Positions 13,384 to 63,657 of a stretch of 64,000 nucleotides of DNA are shown here, piece by piece; position 1 is the stretch's first letter; each line of letters opens with the position of its first letter. Below the pieces are notes generated by a model. That model saw only the letters and a list, made by a program, of their open reading frames with translations, did not search any database and was not told the DNA's origin. The stretch spans positions 1-64,000 of the forward strand of contig JAPTJF010000330.1 of assembly GCA_029339195.1 (NCBI GenBank). Reading direction: 5' to 3'. This DNA comes from Micractinium sp. NFX-FRZ. Lineage: Eukaryota > Chlorophyta > Trebouxiophyceae > Chlorellales > Chlorellaceae. The translations under genes were made by a program, and so were the position numbers.

Positions 13384-16300
13384 TCAGGCTGCAAGCCCCC
13401 CCAGGAGGTCTCCAGCAATGGGGCCAGAGGGTCCCGAGGGTATGGGGGGCAGGCAGCCGCCCGAGGCATCCCGCCACTCCATGAGGATGCGCACCTGGCG
13501 GACGAAGGGGCAGAGCAGGGGGTGGGTGAGGGCAATGGTCAGGGCAGTGAGTGAGCGACAGGGCAGGGGCAGGTGGTGGCGGGCAGGCAGGACAGGTGGG
13601 CTTCCTTCCTTCCTTCCTTCCTGTTACACCGTGTACGTCTCAGCAGAGGCTCGTGTACGTCTCAGCAGAAACTGCGTGCCTGGGGAGGTGCATGGCATTG
13701 CAGCAGCACCCACAGCAACCCGCCCCACGAGCGCCTCCACTTCTGCAGGCCCTGAAGCGCCCCGACACGTGCATGCTGGCCGCCACTTTGCCATCATCAC
13801 ACAACCGTTCCAAAGAACGCAGCCCCAGCACCTAACAGCAGTTCACCGCCTTCCCACATCCACTTTCCGGGGTACAGCACCCCTTGACCACGCACCACAC
13901 GACTCACCGCCTTGTAGTGCACGCAGGCGGCCACCACGACTGCCACGTGGAACAGCTGGTGCGAGTGGAAGGCGACGTCAAAGGCACCCGGCTTCAGACG
14001 CTCCGGGAAGCGAGCCGCGTACACGCCCGCGCCGGCCTGCATTGTGTGGGTGGGGGGGACAGGGGGTGGGGGAGAAGGTGGTGGGCGGCTGTGGGGTGGC
14101 ATAGCACAGATCACGGAGCAGGCATGGGATACGATTGCCGACACACAGACAGCAACACACCACTGGACCTCACAAAGGCATACAACATGCCACTCAAGAT
14201 GTAGACAGGGCCCCACCAAGGCGTCCAGCAGGCAGGGCCACTTCCAGACTGAAACAGCACACCACCGGACCTAGAAGGTGAGCAAGGGAACCAACGCGCA
14301 ATGGCGCCACGAGGAAGTCCAGCAGGCAGCGCACCTGCCGACCCACAGACTGAAACAGCACACCAGCGGACCTCACAGCCAGCCCACTCACGATGTGGAT
14401 GGCCCCCATGAGGAAGTCCAGCAGGCAGGGCGACTGCCGACCCACAGACTGAAACAGCACACCACCGGACCTCACGGCAAGCCCACTCACAATGTAGATA
14501 GTGCAGGCAGGTGGGGCGAGCGGGGTGGGTTGGGGCGGCACAGCACAGAGCAGGGCGCAGGCAAAGGGTATGAGCGCCCGCTCATGTAGGACGCTCCCCA
14601 TGGGGAAGTCGGGCAGAAGCGCGACTTCCGCCCCACTAACTAAAGCACACCCCACCGGACCTTCAAAATGAGCAAGGGAACCAACTCACAATGGCGCCAC
14701 GAGGAAGTCCAGCAGGCAGGGCGACTGCCGACCCACAGATCAAACACAACTCACAGCAAGGGAACCAACTCACAATGTAGATGGCGCCCATGAGGAAGTC
14801 CAGCAGCAGGGCGTGCGTGACCTCTGGGTTGCCCGCGTTCAGCACCCAGCCGTGCAGCATGGGCACGATGCCCCACAGGCCCAGGCAGACAAACAGGAGG
14901 GCGCGATAGGCCTGGAACTCGGAGCGCTGGAAGGCGGACATGAGGGTGACGCACAGGGTGGCCAGGCCTGCTGGGCAGGGCAGGTGAGCGACAGGGGCGG
15001 GGGCCGGGGTGCGGTGTAAGCCGGCGCAGGGGTGGGTGGGTGGGTGGGTGGGGGGCTGGGGTGGTGAGCAATGCACGGCGGGAGAGGCACGCTGTGCAGT
15101 CGCATATTTTTCCAGCAGTGTGGTGCCAGTGAGGTGGAAGTGGGTGTCCCCGTAAGCAAGAGGCAAGAGGCAAGCATTATGTTGAAGAGCGGCCTACCCA
15201 GGGCTTACCCAGCAGCGTTGTGGTTGTGAGGTAGAAGAGGCGGGTCCAGGGGGCGCAGAGGAATCCAAAGTAGACTGGCGGGAAGAAGGAGGCGACGATG
15301 AGCACCGCGATGCCTGCACCATTGCAACAAGGAGGCAGTATCTTGTAAAGATGGGAGGCAAGGCAAGACGCCCCAGCTGTGCAGCTGCGGGGCTGCAAAG
15401 CAGGCGCGAGAAGAGCATCCCGGACGTTGCGGCGTGTAGCAGACGTCCGTTAGCACACTCAGAAGCAGCATCCCACGTAATGCGGCAGAGCACAAGAGAA
15501 GCAGCACAGTCCCACCGAACCAAAATAAGACACAGTGGGCAAGCCCCACCTGCGTAGTCAAAGCGCCACATCACCGCCGTCACGTGCGCAGCGCAGCACC
15601 CAAACAGGTGGCACACCGCGCTGGTCAGCAGGCATATCATGGCGCCGGCTGCATGCCGGGCGGGAGGGGAAGTGTGACGAGAGTGGGGCAGGCGGGGGGA
15701 CCTGCTAGGTACCAAAAGGACGGGAGGGTGCAGTGGAGCAGGCAGGGCTGGCACGTGGCCTGGCCTAAGGGGTTCCTGCCATTGCCACCCTTTCAAAACC
15801 AAGGCGCCTGTCCCACTCACCCCACCCTCACATGTCACACATGCACACAGCCAGGCCCACCCACCGCAGAAGACGTAGACAGGCCAGCGGCTGACCGGCC
15901 ACTTGGCCTCCAGGGCAGCAGCCAGCGCGTCGTGCACAGCGGCCTCGACATGCGCCAGCTCAGCACCCACAGACCTGAAGGACGACAGGGTTGGGTAGTG
16001 TGGGCAGCAGCAGGTGCTGAGCAGCCAGTGAAGCATGATTTGTGGCAGGCGAGCAGCAGGCAAGAGAGGCGGGTGAGCCTGTCATGTCATGCAGCCGTGA
16101 AACCGATGAGGCCACCTGCCGGCCAGAGCACCCACCCGCCAGCTTGCCCGCCCACCCACCATCCAGCGTTTGGTTGACCCACCTGCTGATTGCCTCTCCC
16201 ACCCCGCTCAGCTCGTGCCACCCGCTCTGCAGCGTGTCGGGCAGGTGCAGCAGCTCCTGCTTGGGGCGGGGAGGCAGGGAGGCACAGAAGAGGTGAGGGA

Positions 16301-61890: not shown

Positions 61891-63657
61891 ATGCAGTGCA
61901 CCGCAGTCCTGTCAGCGCAGGGCGCCAGCATGCGGGGCGCAGCGGTGGTCAGCACATCCAGGGGCTGCAAGCCCGCTGCCAGGCCGCGGGTGAGCGCTCC
62001 TCAACCGCTGTTAGGGCTTTGACCTAGCGCGGGGCAGCCGCTGGCCGCGTTCCGCTCCGCTCGGCAGAAGTTCAATCTACGACATGAAATCAGCGGCTTG
62101 CTCCGTCGGGCAGGCGGGGGGCCGCACCCTCACCGCCGCCGCTGCCGCTTGCACGCCGCCGCCGCTCCGTGATGCTGCTGCCTGCGCAGGCCTGCCAGGT
62201 GCGCGCAACTCTGGCGCCCGAGGCCCAGGAAGAGGAGACTGGGGACTACGCCGCCGAGTTCACTCAGGAGATTGTGGACGAGGAGAAGCAGTGAGCAGGA
62301 GGGGAGAGGGAGGGTGTGAGGGGTGCAGTAGAGCGGCAGCAGGCAGGTGCGGAGGGTGGAGTGAAAGAAGGGACATATTCCTCGCAGGCGGGCAGTCAGG
62401 ACGGCCCCCGCGAATTGCAGTGTGAGCCTAAACAGCACGAGGCGCCAGCAGCATGGCAGTGGTGCGGCCAACTTTCAGAGTGCGGCATCACGGGCTGTGG
62501 ACGTGGGTGCTGCATGTCACGCCTGCTGCGCATCGCCTGGCCTCTGCCTGCCCCAGTCATCCCTACATACAACCCACGGTTGTGTACCGCACCTGCCCGC
62601 AGGTACATCCTGCAGACCTACGCCCGCCCCGACATTGTGTTCACGCACGGCGAGGGGGCGCGCATGTATGATGCCTACGGCAAGGAGTACCTGGACTTTG
62701 CTGCCGGCATTGCCGTGAACGCGCTAGGTGGGTGCTCATGTAGGATCACAAGTGGCGCGTATGAGCGGGCAGGCAGGCCGCAGGTATGAAGCCCATGGCA
62801 CGGAGCACCTTGCATGTGCGGCAGGGATTGCTGTGCCGGCGTTCCATGGGTGCTTGGTGTGTGGTTTGCATGTTGGTGCAGGGCAGGGGTTCAGGCAGGG
62901 CATCGTTGCGCAGGGACTGATGCAGGCTGCAGGTGCCACATTGTACTGCTGGCGATGTGGGGCAGGTGCACTGCACATGCGGCACTGCTGAGACCGCAGC
63001 GGGCGAGGTTGGGTGAGGAAACCGCGCAGGGCTGGGCTGCAGTCTGCCCGCTGTCGGACTGCTGGCCTTGCCCCAACTCCGCTCCCGTGCCCACCCTCGC
63101 TGCCCCGTGTCAGGCCACGCTGCAGCTCACACCTGGCCTCTGTGCTCAAGCTGCTCCCCTTCATCCAACCCATGCCCCACCCTTGCTGCCGCCCCTGCAG
63201 GCCATGCTGACCCTCGCTGGCTGGAGGCTGTCACCGAGCAGGCGGCGGTGCTGTCCCACGTGTCCAACCTCTTCCACACCGTGCCTCAGGTGTGTTGCCG
63301 TGCTCTCTTTCTTGCTCATGGTCCTGGATTCTCCTGGGAGCTGCCTTGCATTGCCACCCACCAGACTGTTAGAAGGTCTTTGTGCCCGCAAGCCACGCTG
63401 GCCCAGCGTCCCCTGTTGTCCAACAATGCTCGTCCTCGCAAACAACACACCGTCCGCAGGTGAAGCTGGCCAAGAAATCAGATGTGCCTATGCTGCCCCT
63501 TGGTAACGCTCCTTCTGAAACACATAACGCGCGCAGGTCAAGCTGGCCAAGCGCCTGGTGGAGCACAGCTTTGCGGACCGCGTGTTTTATGCCAACACGG
63601 GGACGGAGGCCAACGAGGCGGCCATCAAGTTTGCGCGCAAGTACGCCAAGGTCAAGG
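61891..63657 (+). CDS. ARGD: Acetylornithine aminotransferase, plastid-targeted, N-terminal part (continues past the window)
   Basis: Visible exons: 61891-61989, 62190-62290, 62603-62727, 63201-63289, 63537-63657; the rest lies beyond 64000. The first 33 residues ([20 protein letters not shown]...ARPR) look like a chloroplast transit peptide. The body matches the plant acetylornithine transaminase N-terminus: [91 protein letters not shown] and [15 protein letters not shown] (PLP-phosphate-binding NTGTEANE). It transfers the amino group between glutamate and N-acetylglutamate semialdehyde in plastid arginine synthesis. Ornithine aminotransferase is the nearest alternative but fits the HVSNLF and [14 protein letters not shown] motifs less well. 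The PLP-lysine region is outside the window. The second acceptor could be 62190 or 62199, both in frame. Confidence 0.92.
62665..62855 (+). repeat. Echo of the ARGD exon-3 end, about 120 bp downstream
   Basis: The exon stretch ATGATGCCTACGGCAAGGAG...GCCGGCATTGCCGTG is echoed at 62786-62845 by ATGAAGCCCATGGCACGGAG...GCAGGGATTGCTGTG. A GGTGCTTGGTG motif follows at the donor position. Confidence 0.85.
63454..63560 (+). repeat. Echo of the ARGD exon-5 acceptor edge, 77 bp upstream
   Basis: CGCAG then GTGAAGCTGGCCAAGAAA at 63460 matches CGCAG then GTCAAGCTGGCCAAGCGC at the true exon 63537. Confidence 0.85.

Follow-up and report, generated by a model that had tools for sequence, protein, structure and literature searches.

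Decaying copies of exon edges in Micractinium introns: apparent intron growth and decoy splice sites through small tandem duplications of exon borders

Why should an intron carry a worn copy of the very exon edge that it adjoins? The question is raised by bases 1–64000 of contig JAPTJF010000330.1 of the green alga Micractinium sp. NFX-FRZ (Chlorellaceae; 66-Mb assembly GCA_029339195.1, 838 contigs; GC 60–68 %), a stretch that we refer to as the window and for which a sequence-only reading had described diverged exon boundaries, splice site included, inside the neighbouring introns of several genes. We call these copies echoes. About one sampled intron in eight holds such a decaying direct copy of the neighbouring exon edge, usually with its splice site, and, judged from the sequence, short tandem duplications across the borders of exons appear to lengthen introns and to leave decoy splice sites.

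Echoes within and beyond the window

The sample comprised the window, twenty 10-kb stretches of other contigs and eight 3-kb loci, amounting to 288 kb; where single stretches outside the window have to be told apart, they carry the labels L001, L011, L013, L014 and L020. Gene models were built ab initio by a self-trained hidden Markov gene finder, trained on the window and the 28 other stretches, which yielded clear consensus sequences for donors (CAG/GTGAG) as well as acceptors (TGCAG/G) and predicted 529 introns with a median length of 240–244 nt. In the edge test, the splice site and as much as 60 nt of adjoining exon were aligned to the abutting intron for 486 introns of 90–700 nt, with a score of at least 17 counted as a match, and the same edges were aligned to length-matched introns from other loci as a control. 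An ungapped self-scan was controlled by dinucleotide shuffling in 250-bp blocks.

Donor and acceptor edges were both found to be affected, as had been proposed: copies in the adjoining intron were detected for 35 of 459 donor edges (control 2/2295) and 35 of 469 acceptor edges (control 5/2345). These 70 matches, 20 in the window and 50 outside, are spread over 67 introns. An echo at 60–180 nt is present in 60 introns, 16 of 110 in the window and 44 of 376 elsewhere, and introns of this kind occur in 19 of the 27 sources with usable introns, the window counted among them. When aligned to the intron at the other end of their exon, the same edges matched in only 2 of 357 and 3 of 364 cases. The fullest 10-nt offset bins of the self-scan lie at 90–119 in the window (3 each) and at 100–129 in the other loci (6, 8 and 8), and block shuffling of the whole sample left a single match at offsets of 20–1000. 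The wider scan, on which the sequence-only reading had staked its claim, thus recovers clustered offsets outside the window, at a match rate that shuffled sequence does not approach. Ends of coding sequences, used as a further control, gave matches at 1 of 48 starts and 3 of 48 stops; these numbers are small, and two of the four matches are G-rich and repetitive by eye.

Some of the edges were checked by homology. Across eight window edges, six in NOC1 and two in P4H, 26 comparisons with homologous proteins revealed no insertion of echo length, so that the copy is non-coding at these edges; 1–3 extra residues were seen in two comparisons, and in two others the relative was short by two residues. 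Pfam searches with 8 of the 23 echo-bearing predicted proteins from outside the window returned known domains for all eight, PCNA, GAPDH, Lon and ABC1 kinase among them, and in six of the eight the match covers at least one echo-bearing edge. The phenomenon is thereby confirmed as real, and it extends past the window into most other sampled loci.

The copies have the orientation expected from the suggested tandem duplication of one splice site together with its exon flank, as 70 direct matches face 4 inverted ones at a score of at least 17 and 44 face none at a score of at least 20. Some edges have been copied more than once, for example those of the donors at 21042 in NOC1 and at 5500 in L014. 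The intron part of the presumed unit is similar at p<0.05 in 19 of 56 pairs, with about 3 expected, and in a young case in L001 most of a 103-nt unit is still recognisable. Introns with an echo have a median length of 331.5 nt, compared to 240 nt without (p 2.5e-9), and subtraction of one unit brings them to 222 nt, not significantly different from echo-free introns (p 0.17) in what is a comparison between introns, not between relatives. The proposal that introns are lengthened is borne out to this extent.

No coding constraint was found on the copies: mismatches are spread evenly over the codon positions (120/709, 149/712 and 146/713; p 0.11, 55 pairs), as expected if the echo drifts freely while the exon is held, which speaks against functional alternative exons. 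The related proposal of a supply of decoy splice sites holds at the level of sequence only. GT or AG is kept in 33 of 43 site-aligned echoes, a count that the alignments favour, and of the 33 echo sites that could be scored, 14 equal or exceed the real site, with echoes being weaker on average (5.5 versus 6.9, p 0.046).

Introner elements are dispersed copies of one element. In a genome search with three stretches, the PAQR stretch matched only itself and the NOC1 stretch itself plus one 41-bp sequence, so that dispersed similar sequence was absent for these two and an introner was rejected as their source; no second copy of either stretch, as needed for dating by alleles or paralogues, was found in the assembly. 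The L001 stretch gave 128 genome matches, seemingly via a short-unit repeat, and its repeat-rich segments 254–501 and 785–830 are the source of most of them. Separately, tandem repeats of about 243–267 bp, which are not echoes, occupy predicted coding sequence at L011 1018–4700.

Size, geometry and possible origin

The 70 edge offsets are clustered, as the sequence-only reading had anticipated, with 48 at 80–139 nt, 8 below 80 nt and 14 longer. Geometry was determined for 39 site-anchored cases with offsets of up to 160 nt, the intron part being taken as the offset minus the exon reach. The median unit comprises 40.5 nt of exon and 61.5 nt of intron on the donor side (n=20), and 44 nt and 65 nt on the acceptor side (n=19). 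Exon reach is 44.5 nt (n=35), against 58.1 ± 3.8 nt for a uniformly placed unit, and a reach as short as that observed arose in 0 of 2000 simulations.

We consider it likely that small tandem duplications in direct orientation have occurred repeatedly, each with a unit that straddles the exon–intron junction, and that the echoes are what is left of them. Such a unit would carry about 42 nt of exon and 63 nt of intron, about 108 nt in all, and its duplication would make the intron longer by one unit. The original mRNA would be restored when the copy closest to the body of the exon is used for splicing, and because this inner site rescues the transcript, the duplication would be tolerated, while the other copy would become intronic and decay freely. 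The initiating lesion is probably a staggered break, both ends of which are filled in and joined without homology. Selection would presumably remove units with too little intron, because the site used would then lose its branch point or intronic context.

Information on the lesion comes from eight hand-picked young pairs. In seven of them the block that was copied does not exceed the offset in length, so that no repeat is needed as a seed, and a flanking repeat (11 nt) was found in only one; this weak test lends no support to the suggested slippage, taken as slippage between pre-existing repeats. Small tandem duplications can arise from fill-in and end joining (PMC8355091). On thin evidence, the young pairs seem to fit staggered breaks that are filled in and then end-joined better than slippage; the inference of joining without homology is thin because only four of them match over nearly the whole unit, and three of the eight (from L001, L020 and PAQR) lie at or beside exon edges.

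The size of the units was compared with duplications lying wholly inside introns. An initial count of only 14 such events, obtained with an entropy filter, had suggested that they are scarce; this was dropped when 82 were found without the filter (110 of 2033 queries, control 9 of 1844). The 82 include many simple repeats and parts of edge arrays, and the recount was made with a milder filter. It gave 46 events in 419 echo-free introns, 33 below 80 nt, 8 at 80–140 nt and 5 longer, with control means of 1.8 below 80 nt and 3.2 at 80–140 nt. For units below 80 nt and of about 80–140 nt, the ratio is 33:8 inside introns versus 8:48 at edges (p 5.5e-11). The size of about 108 nt hence belongs to exon edges, which the sequence-only reading could not have known, and the single repair tract of fixed size that it had offered finds no support as a process acting everywhere, 33 of 46 interior events being below 80 nt.

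Several of these results count against junction-spanning tandem duplication as a complete account. The size spectrum inside introns is shorter than at edges, and in simulated decay interior 105-nt pairs are nearly as visible as edge pairs, so that 26–60 interior duplications of about 105 nt would be expected from the edge count, compared to about 4.8 after control correction. The higher frequency of ~108-nt units at junctions than inside introns is left unaccounted for. In addition, 37 of the 56 pairs have no significant similarity in the intron part, through decay or otherwise, a match over almost the entire unit is seen in no more than four of the eight young pairs, and the young pair at P4H 51259 (97 % identity over 36 nt) has no intron-part match at all, which is unexpected for a plain adjacent duplication.

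The preferred size might still be an illusion. If duplications of many sizes arise anywhere and the survivors are those inside introns or across one junction, the apparent period could reflect a detection window that requires at least about 40 nt of intron and about 20 nt of exon, with junction pairs staying visible longer because one copy is constrained. Simulated visibility is indeed 0.24 substitutions per site for edge pairs versus 0.18 for interior pairs (at 0.3 indels per substitution), 39 of the 42 anchored cases have an inferred intron part of 38 nt or more, and a filter model built on a hand-curated interior list (raw, y≥40) was not clearly rejected by Kolmogorov–Smirnov (KS) tests (size, p 0.076; exon reach, p 0.086). 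The closest model in size with an automated list (raw, y≥40) fared worse (KS p 0.038 and 0.0096), and filter models fed with interior events from echo-free introns place 17–38 % of offsets at 90–130 nt, compared to 74 % of the 42 observed; one earlier version was unusable, as three long events received huge weights. Given also the size contrast between interior and edge events and the 5.4- to 12.6-fold shortage of interior ~105-nt duplications, we regard this ordinary background as possible but doubtful. Under the assumptions tried, the same shortfall makes edge duplications of about 108 nt 5–13 times commoner than a location-random model predicts, and together with the shorter interior sizes it calls for an extra ingredient behind the junction-centred size. 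Such an ingredient could be a mutational process linked to junctions, in which breaks or nicks are favoured on both sides, for example at borders of positioned nucleosomes or through co-transcriptional lesions, so that the two ends of a unit fall some 42 nt inside the exon and some 63 nt inside the intron. The near-identical donor and acceptor geometry, the exon reach below the uniform expectation and the excess of ~108-nt units at edges point in this direction. Part of the geometry could also be imitated by selection acting on splicing, and no enzyme or chromatin evidence known to us ties duplications to splice sites here, which counts against such a process; we judge it rather unlikely.

Two further origins fare considerably worse. 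End joining of the polymerase-theta type could copy a nearby exon edge into an intron break as a templated insertion, and the echo at P4H 51259, a short clean copy without matching intron flank, looks like one. Templated insertions of this type are expected in both orientations, against the 70 direct and 4 inverted copies seen here, and a third of the pairs include the intron part, so that we hold this route to be very improbable. Tandem duplication of an AGGT-bearing exon stretch, the Rogers model of newborn introns, draws on a mechanism accepted as an intron source in the portions of the literature at hand (PMC3443670). It predicts an offset equal to the intron length and echoes at both ends, whereas introns here mostly exceed the offset by more than 50 nt, and by up to 566 nt (by less than 25 nt in 4 of 70 matches), and echoes on both sides occur in 3 of the 67 introns with a match; it is refuted for the echo set as a whole, and little chance is left to it otherwise. 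As the filter model explains only part of the size window, we hold firmly to tandem duplication across the junction and leave the junction hot spot open.

A possible trace of reading frame deserves mention as a lead that we do not claim. Multiples of three are few among offsets measured from alignment starts (13/62, P 0.024; anchored set 5/41, P 0.002), and from site to site they amount to 2 of 20 for donors (P 0.018), 8 of 23 for acceptors and 10 of 43 overall (P 0.105), as selection against in-frame echoes might produce.

Individual cases in the window

In the window the edge test gave 20 matches, some of them weak or within repetitive sequence. Pfam places PAQR, P4H, ARGD and GT8 there, NOC1 was assigned by homology, and CAP-H is a name carried over from the sequence-only reading. 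The offsets given in that reading were recovered by self-scan (NOC1 121, 113 and 113; CAP-H 99 and 104; P4H 114 and 109; PAQR 84, 99 and 101) and edge test (NOC1 110 and 107; ARGD 77); only the larger ARGD offset had to be corrected, its echo being present at 118 instead of 120. The edge test added GT8 offsets of 130, 160 and 201.

For NOC1, on the plus strand, the best named homologue is from Parachlorella kessleri (66 %), with one other sequence higher (74 %). The exon end and donor at 21042 are followed by three successive echoes at 21106–21382 (offsets 93, 234 and 333), and the donor at 22582 by one at 22667–22704 (offset 119–121), in which the echo donor GTGGGT is, by eye, nearer the consensus than the real GTAAAT. 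Acceptor-edge echoes precede the edges at 22095 (21989–22028, offset 110, score 22), 25317 (25184–25241, offset 121, score 20) and 26877 (26764–26792, offset 107, score 22); all five edges named so far are confirmed by homologues. The echo of the edge at 23665 (23547–23591, offset 113), an edge included in the homologue comparison, was seen by self-scan and had been called an exon by our gene finder, and that of the edge at 27399 (27275–27323, offset 113) was found by self-scan. In this gene, the segments 23552–23599 and probably 27286–27297 were mistaken for exons, and annotation pipelines may be misled likewise elsewhere in this genome.

P4H, also on the plus strand and with a best named homologue from Micractinium conductrix (63 %; one other sequence 78 %), contains two echoes at homologue-confirmed edges. 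That of the acceptor at 51259, discussed above, lies at 51140–51175 (offset 114) with an intron flank lacking similarity (intron part p 0.72), and that of the donor at 52162 lies at 52232–52278 (offset 109) and retains the donor GTGAGGCGG. CAP-H (plus strand) has acceptor-edge echoes at 43001–43024 (edge 43108, offset 99; self-scan and edge test), where the intron part is duplicated too (42939–42990, p 0.005), and at 43387–43427 (edge 43497, offset 104, score 31). A copy of its predicted stop-codon edge likewise occurs within the next ~300 bases (43571–43930, score 24), a possible echo at an exon edge that is not a splice site.

In PAQR (minus strand), the product of which belongs to the HlyIII family (Pfam, E 6.8e-56), a copy array at 14245–14777 lies in the intron after exon 14774–14967, with offsets of 84–101 and multiples, and extends to the exon edge, 14671–14693 being copied at 14755–14777. 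ARGD (Pfam Aminotran_3, plus strand) has a donor-edge echo at 62779–62854 (edge 62728, offset 118; self-scan and edge test) and an acceptor-edge echo at 63455–63474 (edge 63537, offset 77, score 18). GT8, on the minus strand, shows an acceptor-edge echo at 33809–33836 (edge 33723, offset 130; self-scan and edge test) and, in the edge test, two more candidates, one at 34215 (offset 201) and one at 34639 (offset 160). Apart from the echoes, GC-rich minisatellite arrays with units of 15–51 bp lie at 45216–45602, predicted coding on the minus strand, and young tandem duplications were seen in the window at 3749–3862 (61 bp, 98 % over 53 nt) and at L013 3741–3860 (60 bp, 98 % over 60 nt).

Known systems and meaning for intron growth

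Internal gene duplications have reportedly been surveyed by Gao and Lynch in 2009, a study cited in a paper on a potato RdRp gene. As described in the passages of that paper seen by us, one tandem duplication in this gene crosses an intron–exon boundary and, like the echo units, includes acceptor, branch site, polypyrimidine tract and exon sequence; it is one isolated case and is expressed in the form of a new intron together with an inserted exon, whereas dozens of decaying copies are present here, donors are involved as well and a size is preferred (PMC4974935). Tandem duplication is an established source of introns and shares with our cases the short direct duplication with splice-site sequence, but in the excerpts consulted an exonic AGGT is doubled to give a new intron of unit length, whereas an existing intron here seems to be lengthened in place (PMC3443670, PMC2891723). 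Duplications from fill-in at 3' overhangs with end joining resemble the present ones in being small and direct and, as seems likely here, independent of repeats or homology; the size is set there by the primase start on the overhang, and the passages seen make no link to splice sites (PMC8355091).

Introners likewise change intron content at genome scale; they are dispersed copies, and of the stretches checked here those of PAQR and NOC1 are each local to one gene. In our literature search, which left most subscription papers out of reach, no report of echoes this dense or this clustered in size was found. Relatives of Chlamydomonas have long introns without the usual short-intron peak, with medians of 198–343 bp that compare well with the 240–244 nt found here; in the passages available, the advantage of this length is stated as unknown and no duplication mechanism is proposed (PMC8226300).

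The echoes offer a visible source of intron length in a green alga other than the Chlamydomonas relatives. By rough arithmetic from 70 of 928 edges and a visibility of 0.24, about 0.6 units (~65 nt) would be gained per intron per unit of neutral divergence. Genes would thereby be loaded with ready-made second donors and acceptors, and the origin of alternative splice sites becomes testable. As a more far-reaching idea, to which we give a minor chance, junctions might be hot spots for tandem duplications of about 108 bp with ends at set distances from the splice site, and intron growth and the seeding of decoy sites might then be driven by a lesion or chromatin feature tied to the junction instead of by general duplication and selection. 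If true, such junction hot spots could explain why green algae have long introns.

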